DNA of 64,000 nt from Tetraselmis striata (Eukaryota > Chlorophyta > Chlorodendrophyceae > Chlorodendrales > Chlorodendraceae): positions 62,001 through 126,000 of the forward strand of contig VCJN01001322.1 in NCBI GenBank assembly GCA_006384855.1, given 5' to 3'. The translations under genes and the position numbers were made by a program. Shown one piece after another: positions 6,001 to 64,000 of this stretch (position 1 is its first letter; each line of letters opens with the position of its first letter). A model generated the notes under the pieces. It searched no databases. It saw only the letters and a program-made list of their open reading frames with translations, and was not told the origin of the DNA.

Positions 6001-7316
6001 GGTAAAGGGGGCGAACGGTGGTGGGGGGGGGGGGGGGGGGGGTCAGTTGTTCCCCGGGATCCGATCCCCAAAAGATGGCCTGCTCATGACGTGCAGAGCC
6101 ATTATCGCAATGACAGCAGTCGTCCACATGCAAACTGACACATATGTGTACATGTATATGGCACATACATACATACATACATACATACACATACCCATGG
6201 GTGCCGACGCCGTATTGAGATCATTGTGAATAGGGATCTGCCCTACCCGTCAGAGGACAGATGTAGACAAGACCATAGTGGAACTATAGCGAGTGTTCCT
6301 ACAGCTTGCATCCAGCCCCAACGTGAGTATTGTAGGTGCCTCGGCACCCATTGTGTTTCTGTGTTTGTGTGCGTGTGTGTGCGCCTGAGAGAGAGGGAGA
6401 CAAGGTGTTCTATCCACCCCTCCATAACGTTCTGTCGTTCGTTCCCAGAGGGGCGTAGCGCACCGTTGTCGTCCGCCTCGGCCTTGAGCGCCTTGATCTC
6501 GTCGGTGAACATCGCAAACGCGCCGCCCTCACCGCCCTCGCCCGCCACCCAGAGGCCCTTCCCCGCGCGGCGGTCCACCTCCGCCTTGACTGCCTTGGTG
6601 CCCAGCAGCTCGTTGCACAGTGCCATGAGCGCCGCCGCGCGGCTGGCCGCCGGCAAACTGTGGTACTCCACCTCGCCCGCCGCGGTGGGGCCCGCGCCGG
6701 GCTTGGCGAACAGGGCCGCCACGGGGTGCATGTCGGGCGCGGGCCCGGCGCCGGGGGCAGTGCTTGGGGCAACGGTGGGGAAGGGCAGCTTTGCCAGCCT
6801 TGAGCCGGTGGAGTGCAGGAACTGCCAGAGGAACTGTGGCCAGGTGAGCGAGTCCAGAAGCGCGGGGTCGGGGGAGCGCCGGGCGCGCTGCTCCGCGTTG
6901 TCGTCCAGGAAGAGCGCGCGCAGGAGGCAGATGTGGACCTCGTCCAGCAGCGGCGTGGCGTGCTTCATGCACAGCGCGGCGGCGAGGTCCTCGAAGGCGA
7001 AGGGGCTCAGGCGCAGCTGCCAGGAGAAGGCGCGCAGGATGGAGTAAGCGCCCGCGGCGTTGCCGACGACGTCCACGCCCGCGATGGCGCCCACAAACGC
7101 CGGCGCGATGGCCTGCGACTGCAGCATCTCGCGTAGCCACCAGGGCGCCGCCGCCGCGATGTGCTTTGCGGGCTGCGCCAGCAGGGCGGCGCCGTCAATA
7201 GGCTCCGCCTTGGCTATCAGCGCCCCCTTCTCGGCTGCCTGGGCCGCCTGGCCCACCTCCGCCTCCTTCACAGCAGCCATGCCCGGCTCCTCAACGACCT
7301 CCATCGGAGTGGTCAT
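1..7316 (-). CDS. DDT-WHIM-PHD chromatin protein (PTM/MBD9/BAZ-like), 3' end beyond the window
   Basis: Likely nuclear chromatin reader. Exons on the minus strand: 7316-6464, 5989-5853, 5693-5163, 4845-4483, 4300-4234, 4122-3992, 3820-3587, then one long exon from about 2790 to past position 1. All junctions are GT-AG and in phase except entry into the last exon, which I could not place exactly; a small exon may be missing. Exon 1 carries a DDT domain (around residues 80-145) and a WHIM1-like stretch (LTWPQFLWQFL). Exons 2-3 encode a PHD finger (CALCG, CCDGC, YHLRC, ending WLCPEC across the junction). Acidic and lysine-rich linkers and a WHIM2-like segment follow. The last exon has a CXXC-like cluster (KRCGKCYTC, about 2629-2690), an AT-hook (KRRGRPPK, about 1575-1605), a WHIM3-like motif (LREFDSYVRWDD, about 980-1050) and a second PHD finger (about 90-260). 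More than 1,600 residues are visible. Plant PTM and MBD9 are the nearest family I recognise. Domain calls are firm; the exact orthologue is not. Confidence 0.88.
2155..2300 (-). repeat. In-frame hexanucleotide repeat coding Asp-Ala/Asn-Ala dipeptides
   Basis: Imperfect hexamers (GGCATT, GGCGTC and relatives on the plus strand) inside the last DDT-PHD exon. Read on the minus strand they give an alternating Asp/Asn-Ala run of about 40 residues. It is an expanded low-complexity linker that stays in frame. Confidence 0.85.
3379..3440. repeat. ATAC/TATG simple repeat in an intron
   Basis: Short TA-rich microsatellite made of CATA, TATA and TATG units, in the AT-rich intron (about 2790-3586) before the last DDT-PHD exon. 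A run of about 18 G lies nearby at 3220. Confidence 0.85.
6163..6193. repeat. CATA simple repeat in intron 1 of the DDT-PHD gene
   Basis: Seven to eight CATA units in the first intron (6463-5990), which also holds a run of more than 20 G at about 6021. Confidence 0.85.
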
Positions 7317-8350
7317 TGACAGTGAAGTGAGCGGCGCCTGCAGTGGATGGGGTGTTAATGAGAGAGAGGGGGGGGGGGGGGGGGGGGGCGCTCAGGTGGC
7401 ACAGCAAACAGAGGCACGGCACCGCCCCTTGTATGCCTGCATGGGCCAGCCACACGCCAGGCGGGGCTGGCAACAGGGCAAGCCTAGCGTGGGTGCCAGG
7501 TGCTCTTTTAGAGTAAGGGTGAGTGGGAGACATGGGCGCGCGGATGGGGAGGGGGGGAATTGTTCCAACTTCAGGTGTGTTAGGGCAACAGACCGCAAGC
7601 AGGAAGCCCGCGTCCCCGTGTGTGGTGCTCGCCCCAGCCAATAAACTGGAACATGGGGGCGGCGAGCGCAGGGCCATGAGGCGCGCCTGCCGTGCTATGC
7701 ATGCTACGCCGTATGGTGTCGCGGCGGAGGTCGAAGGGGGGGGGGGGGGGGGGGGGGGACAGGGCGAACACTTGGCAGGCGGCCGGCTCATCGCCTGGGC
7801 GCCTCGCGACAGCGGGGCAGGAGTGCAAGGGCTAACGTGGAGAGGAGGCGGTCGTCGGTTGCTTTTGGGACCGAGCGGGTGCATACCGCGAGCGTGTCGG
7901 ACTGGACCGGCGTGCCGATCTGGCGGCACCGGATCGGCTCCGCTCCGCTCTCGTCAGCGAGACGCTTCCTCTCCTTGGCGTGCGTGAGGCAAGCTGCCGC
8001 CGGCCGGCTGCGACCGCACGAGGACGGCGCAGCACGGCGCAAGGCAGTGGTTCGCGTACAGTTACTGCACGCTCTGTTCTCGACCGCGGCGGTACTTAGG
8101 GTGCGAGTGCGCGCACCTGCCGATAGCTGCCGCTGGGTGCCGGGGCGATGGGCAGCGGTTGCGCGACAGCAGCAGTTTGAAATTGGCCAAGAAGCCGCTC
8201 GTCCGCGCAGCCGCAGCGGGGGCAGCCCCTGCTGACTTGCCGCAGTAGTAGGTTGCGGGCGGCGCCCCGCTGCTGCTGCTGCTGCGTGGCGCCTCGTTCC
8301 TCTCAACGTCCGAATCAGAGGCGCGTAACGCGCGCGCCAGCAGCATCCGA
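7317..8350 (-). promoter_or_regulatory. GC-rich upstream region of the DDT-PHD gene
   Basis: About 1 kb of GC-rich DNA upstream of the start codon at 7316, with two G-runs of about 20 bp (7368 and 7737). It probably holds the promoter and 5' UTR. Base composition drops abruptly at about 8345. A minus-strand reading frame at 8346-8062 could be an upstream exon of this gene or chance; nothing in it is recognisable. No TATA box or other site stands out. Confidence 0.4.
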
Positions 8351-15501: not shown

Positions 15502-17537
15502 TCAAGGCATGCTGGTGTTTGCGGTCGCCTTCTCGTACATTAGGATGTAGCCGTGGTCCGTGTTGTTCCCAAACTCCGTCGTCGACCCAAACGTCGTCTG
15601 CACCATGGACTCCGTCACCGGCTCAACGTTCTCGTCGTCAAAGAACAGCCAGTTGCTGAAACTCTTCACAAGGCTCACATAGTGCCCTGGGCCAGCACGA
15701 TGACAGTGACATCAACACGACTGATGTAACCCGCTGGATTATAAAAAACCAGGGGGGGGGGGAGGGGGGGGGGGGGGGGGGGGGCAGGGCAGGGAGGCTA
15801 CCGTGGTTGGGCCCGCTTCCCACATGCACCACGACCGCGCTGAGATTGTACACTGTATCGGCCTCGTCGCAGTTGTCGGTGGTGTTGAACAACTTCAGCT
15901 CCATGGGGAACACCACGCGGTACGACAGCTTCTTGTACCTGCGGCAGGGGGAAGCAGACACGAGCGCCCGTCGGATGCACCCATGCCTGGGCGGGAAGCG
16001 CCAGAGGAGGCAGCAGCACGCGGCACCCTCGCGCACCTCCCCAGCTGCTCGATGTACTTGAAGCGCTTCAGGTGCAGCAGCAGCACGTTTGGCAGCTGCT
16101 TGATCTTCATACACTTTTGCGCTTCCTGCCGCAGTGCGGCGGGGCGAGTGATCAGCGTGCCTCCTCCCCCACCCACCCCCGCCCGATGAGAACAAACCCT
16201 CCCCACCCATGGCCGCGGGCGGCGGTGGCCAGCCGAGCAGAACTACCTGAAGACAGCAGCATTTGTCGCAGAAGAACTTGTCGTCCTGGCCGAGGGTCTC
16301 CGTGGAGCTGCAGGGTTTCAGGCAGAGGGCTGGTGAGAAGAGGGGGCAGTGGCGAGAGGGGCCCTGGGAGAGACACCGCCACTCGGCGGGGTCCGCCAGC
16401 GCAGAAGGCAGCAGACCGGCGCCGGGCGCACCTAAAGTTCCTGAAGCAGCTCGTCAGTGAGGAGTTCTGCTCGATGTCCAGGCTCAAGTCCAGGAAGTCC
16501 TCCTCCCGCGATGTGACCGTTTCGCACCTGCCGTGCACATGGGGCGCATTACACTACATGCGACAGCGGCAGACCGCATGATGGTGAAGCTGCTCTCCTG
16601 CCATCTACTGCCAGGGGTCCCCCTCCTGCCGCAATGCCTGCCCCTGTTATCTCTCCTTGACGTTGCGGGCATGGCTCACATCATGCAGCGCGTCTCGTTG
16701 ACGAGCTTGCCGTGGAATATGTCGTGCACCCAGGTGCGGATGGGCAGCTGCGCGGGGGTGCCCAGCCGCTGCGTCCGGTCCTTCTCGTCGCGCTCCAGCG
16801 TCTCTACCATCTCATTGAGCAGAAAGTTGAGGAACTCGTGCGCGTCCTGTCGCGCGAGCGCCACAGCGACAACCCACAGCAGGATCAGGAGGGCCAGCCT
16901 GGCGTGGGCGGGGCTGCCAGGCACGTGATGGAGATACGGGTCGTCCATGCGGAGAGACAGGGCTGCTACTGTGACCAGGCGCGCTGCCAATTGCTGCCGG
17001 CGTGCACCTCCCAGCAGCTGGCGACGTTCTGCGGGCATATGGCGTTGGGAAAGAGGGAGAGGTTGGCGCCTCACCTGGTGCATGTAGCCTCGGAACAGCT
17101 CATTGTCTTTCTTCAAGCGCTGGATGAAGCGTTTGGGTGCTATGACGCCAGTTTTCTTCTTTTGCAACCCGATCTGCAGTCCATTTACACGAGCAGGCAC
17201 GCAGGCAGGCACCTCAACGACTGGCGGATTGCACATGGAGGCGCGCATATTCGAGGCGGTGACCGCCACGGAGCGGCACGTGCCGGTGGGAGGGGTGCGA
17301 TGGCTTGCTCACCTGCGTGAACAGGTCATTGAGGCAGACGAGTAAGTTGTCCTCATTTTCTCGCGCTTCCGCCGGCGTGTAGCGCACCACCTTGTCCCGG
17401 AAAGTGCGGCAGAAGTACAGCGCCTGCAGGACGCTGTTGCAGTAGCACGTGTTCCCGAAGTTCTCCAGCCCAAAGTAGCGCTCCCCCTCTGGAAACTCGT
17501 TGAGGACACGCTCCAGCTTGCTGGAGCTGCTGCCCAT
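15502..17537 (-). CDS. UBP3: Ubiquitin-specific protease, UBP3/UBP4 (USP12/USP46) family
   Basis: Cysteine protease that removes ubiquitin from proteins. Eight exons, all GT-AG and in phase: 17537-17313, 17173-17075, 16846-16680, 16527-16432, 16307-16247, 16125-16037, 15938-15802, 15686-15502, giving 352 residues (about 370 in Arabidopsis UBP3/UBP4). The Cys box [11 protein letters not shown] has the catalytic Cys at residue 31. The C-terminal box has [12 protein letters not shown] with its His and WLFFDDENV with its Asp. Zinc ligands appear as CMMC and CDKCC. The segments [19 protein letters not shown] and [10 protein letters not shown] are near-identical to the plant proteins. The N-terminus MGSSSSK looks like an N-myristoylation site, as in Arabidopsis UBP3/UBP4 (MGAAGSK). 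The start is supported by that match. Intron 7 (15801-15687) carries a run of about 30 G. All catalytic residues are present, so it should be active. Confidence 0.97.
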
Positions 17538-25575: not shown

Positions 25576-26247
25576 CATTTCGGGCCCGTATGGTATGTCT
25601 CTTGTTCCCACCACACCCACTCCATCCATCGCACCAGCTCAACCCGCCCCTTGTTTCATTAACAATTTCCCCGCCGCGCACGCTCGCGCTCCACCCCGCC
25701 GAAACACTCCCGCCAACCCTCGCCCGCACCCGCACCTATGCATGGAGAGATAGTGGCGATTTCGCAGCCACCTCGCGCCCCTACCTGCGGCGTCATGTAG
25801 TCCCGCCGGGCGGGCCATTGACGGTGAGGAAGGCTGAGAGTACAACCGATGAGACGGGAAGACAGCCCCTGATACGCCGCAGCGATCGCTGCACCCGATC
25901 GATGCACTAGTCTAAACCACATGTCGGTTGAGGACAGGCTGTCCCACCCACACTACTACTAGCACACGGGTGTGCTGCGCAGTACTGGTGAGGTGGGGTG
26001 GCGGAGGGTGTTGTGGTGTGCATTTGTGGTTGTGGTGGTGGTGGCGGCGGCGCATCCGGGGGGCGCCGCAGTGGCGAACAGTAGCCGTAGGATCATCTGT
26101 GATCAGAGGTATGTGTTCCATTCGTATAGACATAGCAGCAGTCCGTCGATCACAGATATCGTTTATCACGGGCTAGTCGTACGGAGTACGGGAATCCGGG
26201 ATATTATCAGTGACGCTCGTTCGTCGATCTGCTGATGCGCTGCTGCT

Positions 26248-27651
26248 GTGACTCGGAATCTATCAATTATGTTCGAATGTTCGAGCACTAGCGGAGGATT
26301 GCGCGTCACCACATCTCCTTTTACGGCCACTCCTCTTGGAGTTGGTACTGGTGAGGCCGCCTCTGCTGCCCAGCAATTGCTTCCTATCGGTGGTACGAGT
26401 ACTGCCAATACCGTTACTACATGCGCTTTTGTAGCTCTGAAGATACCGTCGCCGGGCGAATTAGTGGCACACCCTCCGTCAGCAGCCACTGTTTCCCTCC
26501 CAGAATCGCTGCCAGGTTCTACTGCTCCGCCCTCGGGTACGGGTTCGGGTGCGACCTCCGATGATCAACCCACGACCATGGTTGTCCAACGCCACCTCAG
26601 CCGTGCGATTCGCTTGCGTGACTTCGTGGCCCTCGATCTCAGCTTCCAACGTACTGGTGCAGCGGCCTCGCGACTTGATACCCTGCGCCTGTACAGCGCG
26701 TGCGGGCCGGGCTCCCTATCGCTTTTCCAGTCGGATCACGAGTCCGCCCGCAAGATTCCCCATGCTGCTTATGCGGCCGCCGCTGCGCGGGTACTGGGCC
26801 TTTGCCCGCGCGGAGGTTCCGCGCTTGTCACTTGCCCTGGCCAAACGTGTGGTATTGATCCCTTATGGCTTCGCTCTACGGATGGCTCGAACCGGAGCGC
26901 TACGGATTTCATCGTGGATCATCTACCCATATGCCCCGTAGCGAACTACAAGCACCGCATGCATACCGCTTTGAAGAATCTGTGGGCATCTGTGGCAATT
27001 GATGCGGGGGCGGTGCTTGACCGGGACCGCTCGGGAGCCGGCGACTTGACCCTTGAGACGAGTGGGCTGCGCCCAGCGGACCGCTCGCGGCCGTCGGACC
27101 TGACGCTGGCGGGGTGGGGAGGGGCAGCGTGCGATTACATGATCGACTTCGCGTGCGTGTCCTCCACGACCCCCACTTGGAGCAACGACCCCCGCTGGTG
27201 CATCCCGGGAATCGCGGCGACCGAGGCGGAGCATGCTAAGTTGGCAGCGGACCGGGCGTCTTCCGCCCCAGTGCAGGATGCTCACCGGTACTACCCTTTT
27301 GTGGTTGAGGACCGCGGCCGACTCGGGAAGTCCGCTTTGACTGTGGTCTACATCTTCGCGGTGCTTTTGGCTGTGCGCAACTTCCCTGGCGGTCCTTCCG
27401 CCCCGACCTCTTGCTTTCTTCGTGGTCAATCCGTTCAGGCACTTCGAAACTTTGTCGCCGGCCAACCTGCTGAGTTCCGCCGTCACCTGTCGCGCACACG
27501 GCGGGGGCTGTTGCAGCGGGTCTCGGCTTGCGTGCATGGTACCCTGGGCGGCATTCTCTCTGCCGGTGTGCATATGGCCAAGTCTGATGCGTGTGCTCGT
27601 GCCCACTCTGCGTCTTCTCATGTTCCTGCTTCCACCCCGCAGTCGTTGTAG
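26248..27651 (+). CDS. Retroelement-type zinc-finger plus restriction-like endonuclease protein
   Basis: An open frame of 467 codons. The N-terminal part is Ser/Thr/Ala-rich. The C-terminal half has a possible zinc cluster (CPGQTC, then HLPIC and KHRMH), then RPSDLTLAGW, CDYMIDFACVSS and later EAEHAKL. The order CCHC, (K/R)PD, D, E-x3-K resembles the C-terminal restriction-like endonuclease module of R2/CRE-type LINEs and related algal transposon proteins. No reverse transcriptase domain precedes it. A second, partial copy lies at 34.17-34.93 kb and the downstream sequence recurs elsewhere, so this is repetitive, mobile-element-derived DNA. A domesticated gene is possible because the frame is intact. 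Nuclease activity is inference from weak motifs. Confidence 0.5.
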   Translation: MTRNLSIMFECSSTSGGLRVTTSPFTATPLGVGTGEAASAAQQLLPIGGTSTANTVTTCAFVALKIPSPGELVAHPPSAATVSLPESLPGSTAPPSGTGSGATSDDQPTTMVVQRHLSRAIRLRDFVALDLSFQRTGAAASRLDTLRLYSACGPGSLSLFQSDHESARKIPHAAYAAAAARVLGLCPRGGSALVTCPGQTCGIDPLWLRSTDGSNRSATDFIVDHLPICPVANYKHRMHTALKNLWASVAIDAGAVLDRDRSGAGDLTLETSGLRPADRSRPSDLTLAGWGGAACDYMIDFACVSSTTPTWSNDPRWCIPGIAATEAEHAKLAADRASSAPVQDAHRYYPFVVEDRGRLGKSALTVVYIFAVLLAVRNFPGGPSAPTSCFLRGQSVQALRNFVAGQPAEFRRHLSRTRRGLLQRVSACVHGTLGGILSAGVHMAKSDACARAHSASSHVPASTPQSL

Positions 27652-34120: not shown

Positions 34121-34995
34121 GCTTTTGGGTGATATTCCGATCGCCTTTTGCAGCTAGTAGATAGGTCGTGCAATTACGGCTGCTCGAACCGGAATGCCAC
34201 GGATTTTCTCGTGGATCATCTGCCCATATGCCCCGTTACAAACTACAAGCACCGCATGCATACCGCTTTGAAAAATCTGTGGGCTTCCGTGGCGATCGAA
34301 GCGGGGGCGGTGCTCGACCGGGACCGCTGGGGAGTCGGCGACTTAACCCTTGAGACGAGTAGGCTGCGCCTAGCGGACCGCTTGCGGCCGTCAGATTTGA
34401 CGCTGGCGGGTTGGGGGGGGGGGGGGGCGGCGGTGTGCGATTACATGATCGATTTCGCGTGCGTGTCCTCCACGACCCCCACTTGGGCCAACGACCCCCG
34501 CTGGTGCATGCACCCCGGGGATCGCGGCAACCGGGCGTCTTCCGCCCCGGTGCAGGGTGTTCACCGGTACTACCCTTTTGTGGTTGAAGACCGTGGCCGC
34601 CTCGGAAACTCCGCTTTAACTGTGGTCTACATCTTCGCGGTGTTACTTCCTGTGCTATTACTTCCCTGTCCTGCCTTCCGCCACGACTTCATGCTTCCTT
34701 CGTGGTCAGTCCGTCCATGCTCTTCGAAACTTTGTTGCCAACCAACCCGATGAGTTCCGCCATCACATGTCGCGCACGCGGCGGGGGTTGTTGCAGCGAG
34801 TCTCTGCGCTTGCGTGCATGGTACCTTAGGCGGCATTCTCTCTGCCGGAGTGCAGACGGTCAAGTCTGGCGCGTTTGCCCGTGCTCATACCGCACCCTCT
34901 TCTGGTGCTGCTTCCACCTCGCAACTGCTGTAGTGGACGGTTTGTATTGCCTATTCGGATGGTTTCCTGATCGCCTTTTGCAGCTAGCTCATGTA
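34120..34995 (+). pseudogene. Second, partial copy of the zinc-finger/nuclease-like element
   Basis: About 34173-34935 matches the C-terminal half of the 26.2-27.65 kb frame at roughly 90 percent identity by eye, from TGCTCGAACCGG through the RPSDLTLAGW and MIDFACVSS segments to the end of the frame. The N-terminal half is absent and the frame is no longer continuous. The copy sits between two direct copies of a short tail sequence (about 34128-34165 and 34955-34990, CGATCGCCTTTTGCAGCTAG), which is also found after copy 1. A run of 15 G (34413-34427) replaces GGGGTGGGGAGGGG of copy 1. Confidence 0.75.
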
Positions 34996-35736
34996 ACTAA
35001 ATATATGGCCCTTATTCATCTGCCGGCGGACGCCACGCGCGCTCCGCCGGCCCTGGTACTTATTATAGCGTCTGTAGTGCTCTGCCCCCGCCGGCCCGCC
35101 CCCCTGCGTGCCGCCCTGGTACCTGTAGTAGTCCTTTGCCTTTGCCTGACTCTACCCCGTCATCGCCACGTGTAACCAAACACTCATCATTCTACATACA
35201 GGGTACAGTACGCGTACGGCATACCCACTGTTCCTGGTACGTGATTCGAATAGCCCACGTTAATATATTGTACGAGAAATATAAATCAGACGAGTGCCAA
35301 CTACAAAATCCAACAGGTGTGATCCAACAGGTGTCACACCGGAACTACTACGCTTCCGATATTCTACATGTACGGGTTCAGCTGGTACCTCGTACCGGTG
35401 CTGCGCCGTCATATTGATGCGCGCGACATCATCGTATAGCGACTACTGTACGCATCCAGCGCGCCGCGCGCCGTCGAGAACCGTCCGCCTCGTACGACGA
35501 CGACGCTGATGACGCGGCCCGCGACGATGCCATCATCATATGCATGGCCCAGGATGCCCAAACGGACCGAACGCGTCGGACGACGGCTGCACTCGAGCAA
35601 CCCGAGCCGCCGCCGCCGGCGATTGCCACAAATAAAACACCAATCGCAGAGCCACGAACCGCGTAATACTATTATTTTTATTCGTCGTCTCACCTGTGTC
35701 GTTACCGTCCTCAAGTAGCACACAGCACCTGCCAAG
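34996..35736 (+). promoter_or_regulatory. Upstream region of the channelrhodopsin gene
   Basis: About 740 bp between the transposon relic and the channelrhodopsin start codon, presumably promoter and 5' UTR. A short AT-rich patch (AATACTATTATTTTTATTCG, about 35666-35685) lies 50-70 bp before the ATG. No TATA box or light-response element is certain. Confidence 0.35.
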
Positions 35737-38491
35737 ATGTCTGGATCACCCCAGCCCTTCCCCGGTACCTGCGGTCCTGGCTACGATGATGACGTCGTCT
35801 GCGCCCTCGTGGTCAACACAACGCTATATGACCCTCTCTTCGTGCCGCTCGGGCCGCCGTGGGAGCAGATGGTCTCTCGGGGCACGCAGTGGTTTACGGT
35901 CATCCTGAGCATTCTGATGACAGGTTGGTTCTTCTACAACATGTACACAGGGCATTGCGGCTGGGAGGTCATCTTCGTCACGATCATCGAGGTCAGCCGC
36001 CCGGCTATGCTTCAATGGTCTCTTACTGTCGCTGCTTGTCTAGGAAACTCCCTTCCCGAAGCCGATAGCGGCGCCACTTTGCGCTCGCGAGAGTCCTCGC
36101 CAACCCACTTTCGGAAACACGTCTGCTCGAATCGTACGCGGTAACGCGTTTTCTGCGAACCGTTATCCTGTAACGCCCACATGCCGGTCCGGTCGCAGCG
36201 CGGGCGGGCCGCATTCGCCTAGTCTCGTGACAACCACGTCGCAATGACACCCACGCGTGCAGCAGCAACGTCCGACGACATCCTTGGCGCCGCAGTCCGG
36301 CAGTCGACGCTGGGCGGGCACTAGTCACACTTTGGGTTTCGGCGTATTTGTACCAGATCCGCGACTATCCTCAGCCTGTTTCCCTAATTCCCTGCCCAAG
36401 TCCCTGCACTAGCTCAGCCGCCCGACAACCGCCCGTTGACACCCGTCGTGACGCGCGATGATCGTGGGAGTGCTTCTCGCGTCCGGTTTCATCTATCTCA
36501 TAGTGTCTTGTCGCGTCGTCGTCCTGGACCGCATCGGGCGGCAGAGTATCTCAAGAGCATGCGAGGTGTTTCACCGCCGTTACGAGTGGTTGCTGACGTC
36601 ACCAACCGCCGCCGCCTTCTCCCTTTTTCCGACATGGCGACATTCAGCTGGCTAAAATTTTCATCGAGCTGTTCTGGGAGTACGAGACGCCGTGCATGAT
36701 CTACAGCGTCTTTGGCCCTGTGACCTCCTGGCTGAGGTACATCGAGTGGCTACTCACTTGCCCGGTAAGCCCCCCTGCCGCACGACGGCAGTTGCCCATA
36801 CAACCCGCGAGCCCGCACTACTGACAGTCGGAAGCGCTGCACTTGGGATAGTCGCCCCCGTTTTTCCTTCGCCGGGGCTGCGAGTATTAGTCCCGACTCT
36901 CGCTCTAAGGATTTTCCCTCCTTGCGGCCTGTGCCTGCTATTCCTAGCCTGTAGGCATACTCCAAGGCGCGGTACTTAGGCTCAGCTCCACTTGCCTACA
37001 AGAAGTCGCTCTCCTCATTTTTGATGAGGCGCTGCGGCCTGACACCCGCAGCTAGTGCTCGTTTATTCTCGTGCGCGCGATGGCGAATCTGATGCAACAT
37101 AAATGTAAGGAAAGATATTAATGACTTTTTTTCATTTGTGTGTGTATCGCTAGTATATATGGCTGTGCATAGATGTGTAGCGCTTACATGGCTGCGGGTT
37201 ACCTGGCACCAGAATTTCTTTTTCGGGGGATCATTAGCCTTGCTTGTCCTTGCCATGCCCAAGCAAAACAACTTCGTTGCCGGGTTGCCGTCTCAGTATA
37301 TTTTGGTGACCTGTGCGCAACAACACAGCTCGTGCTCGACGTGTTTTCGTTGGTTTCTCAGCTCGGCATCCAACTACTTATGTACTGCTTGTTCGGGCGT
37401 ACCATTCTATCTGACCGCCGACTTTCCCGCATTGCGGATCGTTGCAGGTGATTCTCATCCATTTATCCAACTTGACCGGTTTGGACGAGGAGTACAGCGC
37501 GCGTACGATGAACCTCCTGACCTCCGACCAGGGCACCATCTGCTTTGGCATTACCGCTGCGCTGAGCCCGCACGGCTGGATAAAGATTGTGCTCTTCTTG
37601 ATCGGTCTATCGTTTGGCGTCAACACCTTTTTGACGGCTGCGCGGGTGTACATTGAGTCGTACCACCAGGTCCCCAAGGGCCGCTGCCGCAACCTCGTGA
37701 AGTACCTCTGCGGCATGTTTTTCTGCTCCTGGCTCCTGTTCCCGCTCCTCTTCATCGCGGGCCCCGAGGGCACCGGCTACCTCACCTGGTCGGGCTCCAC
37801 CATCGGCCACACCGTCGCCGACCTGCTGTCCAAGAACATCTGGGGCCTCATCGCCCATTACCTCCAGGTCAAGATCCGCGAGCACATCCTGATCCATGGC
37901 GACGTCCGCAAGACGGTGGAGAAGACCGTCGCGGGGCACACCTTTGAGATCGAGGAGTTTGCCGACAAGGACGACGAGGATGCCGTGGTGCAGACGGGCA
38001 AATTTGACAGGCGCAACAGCTTCCAGCTCATAGGTGCCAAGCTGCAGAAGGGTGGCCAGGAGCTCCAGTATGGGCATGCTGCAGATGATGATGGCGGCAT
38101 GATGGAGAAGGGCGAGAAGGAGATGCAGCAGATGCCGATGCAGATGGGCGGCATGCCGATGCAGGGCATGGACCAGCAGGCGCAGCAGGCGCAGCTGATG
38201 CAGATGATGCAGCAGATGCAGCAGATGCAGCAGCAGGGCGGCATGATGGGCATGCAGCAGCCCCAGCATATGATGTACCAGCAGCCCCAGCACAGCATGT
38301 CTGGCGGGCTCTCCCCCGGCCAGATGTCGCCCACCCACATGATGAGCGGGCAGATGTATCCCGGCCCCAACATGGGCATAATGAGCGGCCAGATGTCCCC
38401 CGGAGGCAACAACCCCATGATGGGCGGCCAGCCGATGTCCCCTGGCGGCCAGCCGATGATGGGCGGTATGATGCCCAACATGTCCATGTAG
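35737..38491 (+). CDS. ChR: Channelrhodopsin (light-gated cation channel)
   Basis: Seven-helix retinal protein expected in the plasma membrane over the eyespot, where it passes cations on illumination and triggers phototaxis. Exons 35737-35991, 36648-36764 and 37448-38491 (GT-AG, all phase 0) give 471 residues. Key residues, with Chlamydomonas ChR2 numbers: E77 (E82), E85 (E90), K88 (K93), E92 (E97), E96 (E101), R115 (R120), E118 (E123), C123 (C128), H129 (H134), D151 (D156), E231 (E235), D249 (D253), K253 (K257, retinal Schiff base) and N254 (N258). WLRYIEWLLTCP and DLLSKNIWG are diagnostic. This set fits a cation, not an anion, channel. The family motif HILIHGDVRKT follows helix 7. Residues 350-471 form a tail with 34 Met, rich in Gln, Gly and Pro, unlike the tails I know. 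A TGTAA signal lies at 38717. ATG choice rests on homology in length only. Confidence 0.97.
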
Positions 38492-44822: not shown

Positions 44823-46769
44823 TCACAAGGATCGTCTGGTTCGCGGGTCACGCCAACGGGCGTTGTAGCGGGGCAGGAGGGCGTTTTCAGAAGTCGCGAA
44901 GCGGTCGATGGTGCAGGCGCCCCACTTAGCAGTGAGCGAGGCGAATCGACGAGGGTTGAACTGCCAGTCGTCGCAATCAACCTCGCGACTAAGGCGGTCA
45001 GCCCAGATATTCGCCGCAGAACGGATGTAGCGCACGGAAAGGGTGATGCCGTGCGTGTCCATGAGGTACCACGTTTTGCGTAGCTCAGCCATGAGGCGTG
45101 GAGAGCGAGAGGTGAGGTTAGTGAGGACGCCGACAACTGCTTGGTTATCCTCGTGCAAGCGGATGTGGCGGTTTTGGAGCATGGGGAGGAAGGACTCGAT
45201 AGCCAAGCGGACGGCTTTGAGCTCTTTCAGGGTAATGTGCGCATTGCGGTCATCGTCGTACCAAAAACCCCGAGCTTCATGGTGCTCGTTCAAAACGGCA
45301 CCCCAGCCGTAAGACGAACTGTCGACGTGTAGGTATCCGGTTTCGACAGGGCGGTTAATGGGGCGGCCGTTGTGTTGGGTGGGCACACCCACCCACCATT
45401 GCAGATCGCGCTCGAGCTGGCGGGTAAGCTTGACACGGCCGGACCAAGAGTCGCGCGTCTTGAGCACATCATGCAGCTCACGAAGGTAGAAACGGGCAGG
45501 GGCAATGGCCAAGTAGAGAAACTGGCATTTGCCCGCGAGAGCGGCCAACTCGCGAGCTGGCAACCACCGACGATCGCGTTTTGCTCGTTGGATTAGGCGT
45601 TTGGCCGCGCGAGCAATGCTGGCGAGTTTCTCAGCGGGCGCACGAAGAGTAGGTGACCCCGATGTGTCAATTTCTAACCCCAGGTGCACGAGCTTCTGGG
45701 TGGGCTCCCACACGCCTTTGTTGGGGTTGCGCAGCAGACCAAAGCCCGAGAGGTGGCGTTCGATGTAGTCACGTTGCCAGATGGCCTCAGCCTGAGTCCG
45801 AGCTAGAAATAGGAAATCGTCCATGTAGGGCAACATGCGCAGGCCAAATCGTCGCCGGAAAATAGGTGTGCCATCTGCTTCAGCCGGGTTACGACGCAAT
45901 GCCCTAGTGAGGACGTTGGTGAATTGGCAGAAGTAATAGGGGGACAGAGACCAGCCCATGGGAAGGCCAGCCAGTCGGTACAGAGTGCCGCGGTAATCGA
46001 CAGTGAAAAAATCCCTGTCCTCAGGGGCGATTCCAACCGCGTAAAACCCGTCTTGCAGGTCCATCTGTAACATGTAGTCCCCAGGGCGCGCCAGGTTGCG
46101 TAAATGCGAAAGCGTCTCAAACGAAAGATCGCGCGTCTCACAATAGCGGTTCAGGGGGCGAAGGTCAATGATGAGCCTCCATTTGTTTGTTCCAGGCTTA
46201 GGAACCAGGAACAGCCGGGACACCCATTTTGCGCAGTAGCCTCGCTCCCAGGCCCCAACGGCCAGGAAGCGAGCCAATTCACCGTCCATAAACTCCAGTT
46301 GAGCAGGAGTAGCATCCCCCATTGACACCCCCTGATGAAAAGAAGGTGGGGCAAGCCCGTCCAAGAAAGGAACGCGTACACCTCGGGATATCCAGTTGAG
46401 AACACTGCGATTTGCGCCAGCGGCTTGCCAGTTGCCGAGATTACGACGGACGCGATGTCTCATAAAAGGGGAGTCGGGAGTACAGGAATTGGCGCGATGG
46501 ATGTCGCGAGGGGGGCGAGCAGAGCGCCCTGTCGCTCTGCTGGCCCTCTCCGCGTCGGCGTCAGGGTCCACGGTGCGCGGCACAGTAGGAGTGCCGCGGC
46601 GTGGGAGTAGCCATGTGCCACTGGGCGCTGGCTTGGCCACTGGCAGTGTACTGTCACTTTGTACTCGAATCTGTACTAGACGACGGGCATACGCCGGCAT
46701 ACGCCCCAATCGGAGCGCATCGCGACACCTACGCCGAGTAGGGGCCCGTACAGATCGAGCCATGCCCAC
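44823..46769 (-). CDS. DIRS-type reverse transcriptase/RNase H (retroelement fossil)
   Basis: A 648-codon frame. The palm and fingers motifs appear in order: KWRLIIDLRPLNR, QMDLQDGFYAV, GLPMGWSLSPYYF and the catalytic YMDDFLFLA. A thumb region follows (LGLEIDTSG, ELAALAGKCQFL), then an RNase H domain with HVDSSSYGWGAVL, HITLKELKAV and LHEDNQAVVGVL. It ends in the TIDRFATSENALLPRYN segment, which in DIRS-type polyproteins follows RNase H. The polymerase module itself looks whole, although the element around it lacks other expected parts. Confidence 0.92.
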   Translation of the reverse strand: MGMARSVRAPTRRRCRDALRLGRMPAYARRLVQIRVQSDSTLPVAKPAPSGTWLLPRRGTPTVPRTVDPDADAERASRATGRSARPPRDIHRANSCTPDSPFMRHRVRRNLGNWQAAGANRSVLNWISRGVRVPFLDGLAPPSFHQGVSMGDATPAQLEFMDGELARFLAVGAWERGYCAKWVSRLFLVPKPGTNKWRLIIDLRPLNRYCETRDLSFETLSHLRNLARPGDYMLQMDLQDGFYAVGIAPEDRDFFTVDYRGTLYRLAGLPMGWSLSPYYFCQFTNVLTRALRRNPAEADGTPIFRRRFGLRMLPYMDDFLFLARTQAEAIWQRDYIERHLSGFGLLRNPNKGVWEPTQKLVHLGLEIDTSGSPTLRAPAEKLASIARAAKRLIQRAKRDRRWLPARELAALAGKCQFLYLAIAPARFYLRELHDVLKTRDSWSGRVKLTRQLERDLQWWVGVPTQHNGRPINRPVETGYLHVDSSSYGWGAVLNEHHEARGFWYDDDRNAHITLKELKAVRLAIESFLPMLQNRHIRLHEDNQAVVGVLTNLTSRSPRLMAELRKTWYLMDTHGITLSVRYIRSAANIWADRLSREVDCDDWQFNPRRFASLTAKWGACTIDRFATSENALLPRYNARWRDPRTRRSL

Positions 46770-47283
46770 ACGGGAAAGGGCAGCCAGGGGTTACTGTTGG
46801 TCGACACTGGTCGAAGGTCTTGGACCTTGTTCCACTGAATGGGGAAGCGCTGCAGCTTCGTCCTCTCCTCGCGTTGGGCGAGTAATCAGCAGCTCGTTCG
46901 CGGGTAGTAGTTAGCACGTCGCAAGCGGCGCGCGTACATTAACCACACAAACCCTAACGGGTTTCTCCCAGGGGGGGCCCCGAAAGGCGTCGCTCACCGT
47001 ACATGTTACGATGGCGGAAGACCGGCACCCTGCGCGGCAAAATTGCCGCGACTTTGCTGTGGTGCGCTCGATGGAGCGTGCCACAGCAAAGGAGAGTGAC
47101 CGGTCGGTCCGCCGTGAAGGCAGGTGGTGGCTCTGACCGGCCCCCGCAATCGTGCGCGCGCACACACGCGCTACGGGCGCCGCGCCAGGGCTATCTCGTA
47201 CAGGTAGAGAAACCACATAAACTAGTTTAGAACATATCTCACCCCGGAACATATAAACGCTCTCAAAATTCAGGGTAGAAAGG

Positions 47284-61939: not shown

Positions 61940-63643
61940 GTTCTCCCACTTGTTGATTTCGTAGTTGGCGCCGTGTGAGAGCAGGTACTCAAACACCCGC
62001 ATCGCGCCCTCGTCGCCGCTGTCGCCCCTGCGCACACAGCCGGGCGCCGTCAGCACGCTCCATGCCCCGCTCCCGCCCCTCCTTTCCATGATCCCCCCCC
62101 TCTCCCCCCCGAGAGCTGTCCACTTCACTGAAGCAGCTGAAGCGGCAGGGGGGGGGAGGGGGGAGGGTCTCACTTCTGCCTGGCGAGAAACACGGGCGTC
62201 AGGGAAAAGTTATCCAGCTCGTTAATCAGTTTCAACCGCTCCTGCGTCTTCTCCGCCGCCTGCGCCAGCCCGCAGCCCCTCGCCAATCAGCGCGCCGCCC
62301 AGCAGCATGCAGCATGCTCCCCCCCCCTCGCTTTGTCCCTTTGTCCCACGCTTGGCCAAGGGGGTGACACACCATTCCCGTCGGTTGAGGCGCGCCTGTG
62401 CACAGTCTATTACTTGGAGGGTAGGAACATCGTGCCACGGGACTGGGCGCAAGGGGCGCACGCGTAGCGAAGGGTTGCCACTGGACACCCCCCCCCCCCC
62501 CCCCCCCGACACCGCCCGGACAGAAAAAGACCCTACCACCCTAGAGTTATTCTGAGCACAGTTTTGGGGGGTGCCCATTATCGCACATACGTAGCGGCAC
62601 GAGGAAGCCAGCCAGCCCTTCTGGGTGCCGCCCTGTCACTTTCGCCGATTGCATTCGATTCGTGCTATTCAACAAACGGTGCCGCAGCGGTGATCACAAC
62701 ACTGCCAATTCGCACGCGGCATGCCTCCAAGATGCCAGATGTATACAAAGGCACGGCCGGCGCACTGCGAATCTTCCGATGGAAAGGATGGCGTGCGGCC
62801 CCAGTGAGAGGCTTTGATTCCGGGGGATGCGCCGGCAGCTGTCTAGTTTATATCAGCTACCGTATCCTATCAATGCATATCAGGGCGTCCACTTGCCAGT
62901 CCCGCCAGGGCCGCCCACCTGACCCTGGAAATCGACCCTGTGCGGTGGTTGGGGCTGAGTTGCCGCATGGTACCCGCGCGCCATACTTTCTCTCTCGCCG
63001 TTTGGAGACCATCTCGGAAGATACAGAAGGAGAGGGGTGTGTGTGTTGGGAGGGGGGGGCTTACATCTTCGGCGCTCTCCTCAGCCTTCTCCACCAGGGC
63101 CTTGACAGCGTCCAGGTAGCCGGCACGCGCGGCCAGGTGCATGGCAGTCCTGGCCGACATGGCGGGGATCAGTGGGGGGTCAGCTCGGCTCGTGACGGCA
63201 GTGCTCGGCGGGTGGGGGCTCGCAGCGCGGCGCACCTGCCGACACCGTCCTTGGCGTGCAGGTCGGCGCCTAGGTATACCAACGTCTTGCAGGCCTCCGG
63301 GTGGCCGCACTCCGCGGCCCAGTGCAGCGCGGTGCGGTCCCACTTGTCCTGTGTGCCAGTAGAAGGCAGCCATCGAGGTGAGGTAGGCGAGGTGGTGGCC
63401 CAAAGGTAGCGTGCACAGGGTAGCGCGTGGGGGCGCGGTCGCACCCGGGTGTCGATGTTGAGGTCCATTGTCCGGTCGAAGATGTTCTCAATCACGGTGA
63501 CCAGCCCCTTCTCCGCCGCGTCGTGCAGCCGGAGACCGGGCTCCGGCGCATTGGAGTCCTTCGCCAGCAGGTCAGCGATGCCGGCCGACTTGCGGCGGTC
63601 AGCGGGGCCAAGCGTCTCTGCGCAAGCAGCGGCGCCGGCCGGA
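61940..63643 (-). CDS. Ankyrin-repeat protein, partial
   Basis: Five exons traced: 63643-63445, 63348-63236, 63149-63065, 62259-62174 and 62027-61940; from the second onward junctions are GT-AG and in phase. Ankyrin repeats are clear: LRLHDAAEKGLVTVIENIF with LNIDTR; DRTALHWAAECGHPEACKTL with LGADLHAKDGVG; RTAMHLAARAGYLDAVKALVE; then NFSLTPVFLARQKGDSGDEG and MRVFEYLLSHGANYEI. The repeats mediate protein binding; no catalytic domain is visible. The upstream exon start is uncertain because DNA to the right is dominated by G-runs, so the N-terminus may lie past the window edge. At the other end an exon near 61440-61530 (minus) and a terminal exon near 61313 are possible but unsupported. Partner and pathway unknown. 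Confidence 0.82.
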
Positions 63644-64000
63644 CTTGTAAGCGAATTTTGCGGAGGGGCGGGGCACAGAGGGGGGGGGGGGAGGGAGGTG
63701 GGGGGGGGGGCGGGCGCGGGGGGGGGGGGGGGGTCATCCTGCGCACACACTGGGCGCCGGCAGGCACGCGCAGTGGGCCGTCGGGGCGACTCACTTATGC
63801 CCGGCCCGTCGCCCGCCCCCTGGGTATCCTGGCGCCACGAACAGCGCAACCGGCAAAGGTGAGATTTGCGGTGGATGAGGAGATATCAACGGACACGGCA
63901 GGCACAGCGCGCGGTTGTTGTTTGGGTTTCGGGGGGGGGGGGGGGGGGGGGGATATAGAGAGCCGAGCGCGGATGCCAGCGCGCAGCGCAATACCTTCGC
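63644..64000. other. G-run-rich DNA at the right edge
   Basis: Probably intron or 5' flank of the ankyrin gene. G-runs at 63679-63690, 63703-63710, 63718-63734 and 63930-63951. A short coding-like minus-strand stretch at the very edge may be an upstream exon. Confidence 0.35.

Follow-up and report, generated by a model that had tools for sequence, protein, structure and literature searches.

More than 150 chlorophyte channelrhodopsins had been identified by 2021, few of them tested by expression (PMC8406140), and one more is therefore unsurprising. The Tetraselmis channels named in the literature searched are TsChR, PsChR/PsChR2 (also TsRh1), and TcChR. TsChR absorbs at ~436 nm (PMC12558739). 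It has in common with PsChR2 and TcChR a G/A pair at the positions of ChR2 T159 and G163 (PMC5668261), and the blue shift seen in PsChR2 and in TsChR has been linked to this pair (PMC8818676). Most chlorophyte cation channels keep five glutamates in helix 2 and its loop, E82, E83, E90, E97, and E101 in ChR2 numbering (PMC8406140, PMC8818676). In simulations of ChR2, E82 and E83 belong to the intracellular gate and R268 is its core, bonded to E82 (PMC6695816). Prasinophyte green algae also have anion channels (PMC8406140), so the selectivity of a new member is not readable from its family alone; one review found no carboxylate at the E123 position in any anion channel known to it (PMC8818676).

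We analyzed a window of 64,000 nucleotides of Tetraselmis striata DNA (bases 62001-126000 of contig C1060, in an assembly of 224 Mb and 2903 contigs), in which an intact gene of three exons at 35737-38491 on the forward strand, here called gene A, encodes a channelrhodopsin of 471 aa. With a probability of roughly 0.88, we read gene A as encoding a natural Tetraselmis channelrhodopsin that belongs to the chlorophyte cation-channel family and would respond to blue to blue-green light and depolarize the eyespot membrane.

Gene structure and family placement

The joined exons of gene A (35737-35991, 36648-36764, and 37448-38491) were in frame over 1416 nt and encoded 471 aa followed by a TAG stop codon (38489-38491). 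An in-frame TAG at 35716 was located 21 nt 5' of the start codon. Exon 1 carries the start codon, the extracellular N-terminus with C12 and C22, helix 1, and early helix 2 as far as E85 (ChR2 E90). Exon 2 runs through the remainder of helix 2 to where helix 3 begins and includes K88, E92, E96, R115, E118, C123, and P124, and exon 3 encodes helices 3-7 and a Met/Gln/Gly-rich cytoplasmic tail. Both intron 1 (35992-36647, 656 nt) and intron 2 (36765-37447, 683 nt) were GT-AG introns of phase 0. Neither length is divisible by three, and the introns contained four and nine in-frame stops, respectively, which rules out read-through. The three-exon model with clean GT-AG junctions put forward in the first-pass annotation was supported by this frame and by the intron places in three paralogues (see below).

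The predicted protein matched the Pfam family Bac_rhodopsin (PF01036) at 5.2e-43 and contained the retinal Schiff-base lysine K253 (37832-37834; ChR2 K257), the two features that define a microbial (type 1) rhodopsin. The best solved structure was C1C2 (4.6e-91, residues 42-305), followed by ChR2 (2.6e-90, residues 43-308). By both the Pfam and the PDB comparison, the match of the predicted protein is far beyond chance. Identity to gene A over the core was 84.1% for paralogue B, 58.2% for paralogue C, 56.0% for C1C2, 53.8% for ChR2, 46.7% for paralogue D, 38.7% for Chrimson, and 19.4% for GtACR1.

A tree was built from eight core sequences, in which GtACR1, on a long branch, was the one anion channel and green-algal anion channels were outside the sample. 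Genes A and B grouped at 100/100 and joined C at 82/98, with GtACR1 apart and three of the five inner branches open. Within this sample, the A and B clade falls with the cation channelrhodopsins of green algae and is separate from GtACR1. In a tree with two further sequences added, C, SdChR, and the A and B clade formed a group at 91/91 whose internal order was still open, and five of seven inner branches were open. The earlier reading of a complete green-algal cation-type channelrhodopsin, which was to be checked against characterized channels and in a tree, held up in the sequence, in the comparison with solved channelrhodopsins, and in this small tree. Gene A is a complete and apparently functional gene for a light-gated channel. 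Viral contigs were also scanned with the channelrhodopsin alignment; six stretches matched and none was confirmed.

The window also contains exons for a ubiquitin carboxyl-terminal hydrolase (15638-17308, with one of two frames below the Pfam cut-off), exons for a DDT-domain protein (6243-7391), and ankyrin repeats (62870-63885), all on the reverse strand, and these genes are ordinary neighbors of gene A. A retroelement reverse transcriptase/RNase H open frame was found at 44823-46790, also on the reverse strand. A high-copy dispersed repeat occupies 34175-35005, ~0.7 kb upstream of gene A. At least 44 matching pieces of this repeat were counted, including the window's own (40 were scored of 3008 first-look candidates), and an open reading frame at 26236-27651 appeared by eye to be related to it.

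Gate, selectivity, and color residues

Positions of gene A were mapped onto ChR2. The carboxylate counterions E118 and D249 (ChR2 E123 and D253) were kept, together with the C128-D156 gate (C123 and D151), the central gate S63-E90-N258 (S58, E85, and N254), R115, H129, and four of the five glutamates of helix 2 and the loop (E77, E85, E92, and E96). The fifth, ChR2 E83, is replaced by V78 (codon GTC, 35968-35970), and the position of R268 in the intracellular gate is taken by Q264 (codon CAG, 37865-37867); both are non-canonical inner-gate residues. The first-pass annotation had described a canonical cation-channel set with all pore and gate residues present. Its 12 named residues were all found in the protein at the numbers it gave, and the stretch LAKIFIELFWEYETP that it quoted begins at residue 86. 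The claim to completeness did not stand: with two inner-gate residues changed in the predicted protein, "canonical" is slightly overstated.

Paralogue B carries the same pair as gene A (V89 and Q275). Glutamate and arginine occupy these two positions in C, D, ChR2, C1C2, and Chrimson, that is, in all five other green-algal rows, of which ChR2 and C1C2 are not independent of each other; GtACR1 has alanine at the E83 position and a gap at the R268 position. Since the five-glutamate set is held by most members only, V78 does not disqualify gene A from the family, and we know of no source that makes R268 a criterion of the chlorophyte cation channelrhodopsin family. Introduction of glutamate at the E83 position of GtACR1 (A61E) altered current decay (PMC8818676). 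Given this effect and the inner-gate roles of E83 and R268 in ChR2, a changed inner gate in gene A is a reasonable guess. V78 and Q264 probably put uncharged contacts where the inner gate of ChR2 has the charged E83/R268 pair and, in doing so, probably alter closing rate, rectification, or proton leak. More tentatively, and at less than even odds, genes A and B may represent a second Tetraselmis channelrhodopsin type, with V/Q in place of the charged inner gate, that would differ in closing, rectification, or proton leak and serve phototaxis at wavelengths outside those of TsChR.

The V78/Q264 pair, the same letters in B, and the A61E effect could also point to a channel of changed selectivity, either proton-dominated or partly anion-permeable, whose inner gate works without E83 and R268. 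We consider this unlikely, because the equivalents of E82, E90, E97, E101, and E123 are all kept in gene A. At the E123 position, where a non-carboxylate marks anion channelrhodopsins, gene A has E118, a carboxylate that none of the anion channels in the review cited above has at this position, and its retention in the predicted protein argues against an anion channel.

Genes A and B have T/G at the color-tuning pair (T154 and G158 in gene A, 37535-37549), whereas C has G141/A145, so gene A falls outside the deep-blue TsChR/PsChR2/TcChR group defined by G/A. S252 is kept in gene A where Chrimson has alanine, and the residue at this position matters for red shift. From the T/G pair and S252, a longer wavelength than that of TsChR is expected, yet not a red one. 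Our guess is that gene A would absorb above the ~436 nm of TsChR, at 455-490 nm.

In the proposed working of gene A, retinal presumably bound to K253 would absorb blue to blue-green light, and its isomerization would transfer the proton of the Schiff base onto the counterion complex of E118 and D249. Both the C123-D151 gate and the central one (S58, E85, and N254) would open. We infer an inward flow of cations that would depolarize the eyespot membrane and lead to phototaxis. Gene A most likely encodes a light-gated cation channel that would sit in the eyespot membrane and start phototactic signaling.

Channelrhodopsin paralogues in the genome

The genome was searched by Pfam family, by DNA, and with two proteins, in addition to local comparison. 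At least four channelrhodopsin genes were identified: A in the window, B (contig C679), C (C342), and D (C1923 and C1848). The gene counts are lower bounds and the Pfam search overlooked D, so further channelrhodopsin genes are possible. The predicted models comprise seven exons for B, six for C, and nine for D, and every intron is GT-AG.

Intron 2 of gene A, after ChR2 P129, recurs at the same place and in the same phase (0) in B, C, and D. The site of intron 1 is within the ChR2 E90 codon or directly behind it in every one of the four; relative to gene A, it is shifted 2 nt upstream in B and 1 nt downstream in both C and D. These intron places, common to the paralogues, lend independent support to the splice sites of gene A. 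B, C, and D share an intron after ChR2 K174; gene A does not have it and probably lost it. Gene A is also without the introns at ChR2 194 (B and D) and at 248 and 270 (C and D). Introns at ChR2 260 and in the N-terminal part were found in B alone, and two extra introns 3' of helix 7 in D alone. Both introns of gene A lie in its 5' part, and the intronless 3' part may have recombined with a reverse-transcribed copy.

Gene A lacks four introns of the B model (N-terminal, ChR2 174, 194, and 260) and has the high-copy repeat ~0.7 kb upstream, as might a decaying or non-expressed duplicate of B, whether a pseudogene or a partly processed copy. This reading is highly improbable, as gene A has an intact frame, clean splice sites, an upstream stop, and the photochemical residues kept. 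Selection between A and B also stands against it. Over 237 codons, dN was 0.125, dS 1.84 (near saturation), and dN/dS 0.068, and 120 of the 176 differences fell at third positions. Gene A is under purifying selection, which is strong in this comparison.

Paralogue C agreed with the published numbering of TsChR (PMC9772239, PMC5668261) at five of five residues (S45, E72, L114, G141, and N240), and the published PsChR residues S46, E73, and D139 each carry a number one above that of their counterparts in C. The residue numbering of C makes the organism most likely T. striata or a very close relative (taxon 3165, Chlorodendrophyceae). That gene A is itself the TsChR gene or the PsChR orthologue, as a common genome and family and 58.2% identity with C over the 7TM core might suggest, can practically be dismissed, because a separate locus on C342 fits TsChR at all five numbered residues, the glutamate numbered E72 in TsChR is E85 in gene A, and gene A has T/G against G/A.

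In each of the four proteins, an HGDVR-like motif behind helix 7 is followed by a C-terminal tail rich in Met and Gln (Met 10-19%). Only C has an extra 127-aa segment (residues 331-457) between helix 7 and this tail; CrChR2 has a similar segment. The segment was sought in A, B, and D by blastp (to E = 10) and by tblastn on parts of the loci and was not found, apart from one chance-level stretch of 26 aa in the window (E 0.57). In PDB it had three weak, unrelated matches (E 0.23-0.94), and a receiver-domain (response-regulator-like) reading was rejected, as no Pfam match was obtained up to E = 1. The C query did align to the exon of gene A through query residue 388, inside the segment. Since the search with the segment itself gave no significant match, this alignment was taken as a run-on into the Gln/Met-rich tail. 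For TsRh1, the channel of T. subcordiformis, a MED15 module has been proposed (PMC7693036), and our guess is that this may reflect such a Gln/Met-rich tail. A 59-base DNA match on contig C1651, considered as a further paralogue, gave no channelrhodopsin protein match up to E = 1 and was taken as Met/Gln-rich tail sequence.

Paralogue D was the most unusual sequence met, stranger than gene A. It encodes 633 aa in nine exons and is intact on C1923 only (L021:2758-5901). Contig C1848 (L022) stops within exon 1, past the start codon, and a one-base gap in that exon shifts the frame. The nine main exon alignments of the C1848 copy with the C1923 model were 96.97-100% identical, and four shorter pieces at 87.5-91.9% were cross-matches within the repetitive tail. 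At ChR2 positions, D has T for R120, Q for H134, D for E97, M for E101, Q for H249, and E for D253, the threonine for R120 being identical on both contigs. R120 is the core arginine of the outer gate, and with threonine in its place, the predicted extracellular gate of D is rebuilt.

Other rhodopsin genes were also observed. A fifth, divergent channelrhodopsin-like gene, E (L012:5207-5860, C2171), lies in a 10-kb locus with 3500 N; by eye from the alignments, it has alanine at the E123 counterion, methionine at C128, and odd spacing before the helix-7 lysine. Three further loci (L003, L004, and L005 on C1314, C1951, and C974) held other rhodopsin genes above the Pfam cut-off. By eye, the first two are apparently two copies of one gene, and the third (C974) runs on into a histidine-kinase-like stretch. 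A pump-like rhodopsin, also judged by eye (L002/L011), lies on the 653-kb contig C2605 in a 3.5-kb locus with a G+C of 0.69, and it possibly comes from another organism in the culture.

Comparison with known channels

GtACR1 and gene A are both microbial rhodopsin channels with equivalents of E82 and E90 in common, but they are only 19.4% identical, and GtACR1 has serine at the counterion position and alanine at E83. Chrimson has the 7TM fold and the equivalents of E90, E97, E101, and E123 in common with gene A at 38.7% identity; the cysteine at D156, alanine at S256, and lysine at H134 of the Chrimson chain (5zih) are all absent from gene A. With the Chlamydomonas channels CrChR2 and C1C2 (53.8 and 56.0% core identity), gene A shares the counterions, the C/D gate, the central gate, and the color pair, and differs from them at E83 (V78), R268 (Q264), I157 (Q152), and W162 (F157).

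The comparison with TsChR of T. striata and PsChR2 of Platymonas subcordiformis was made via paralogue C. Gene A is of the same family and probably of the same species as TsChR, and C is the nearest sampled relative of A and B in the eight-row tree (82/98), with introns at ChR2 E90-91 and P129 in common with gene A. Gene A differs in being 58.2% identical in the core, in having T/G rather than G/A and V and Q at E83 and R268, and in being without the 127-aa segment that C has between helix 7 and the Met-rich tail.

Gene A or B may already be among the more than 150 chlorophyte sequences. Gene A is a useful addition to a well-known family and not a new kind of channel. Beyond the first-pass annotation, the analysis adds a V/Q inner gate shared by the sister genes A and B, and a genome that also holds the deep-blue TsChR type and the stranger fourth gene D. 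This places gene A beside a published deep-blue channel in one genome, from which it differs at color-setting and two inner-gate residues, and together with its natural sister B, which has the same changes, it offers a ready test of the roles of E83 and R268.
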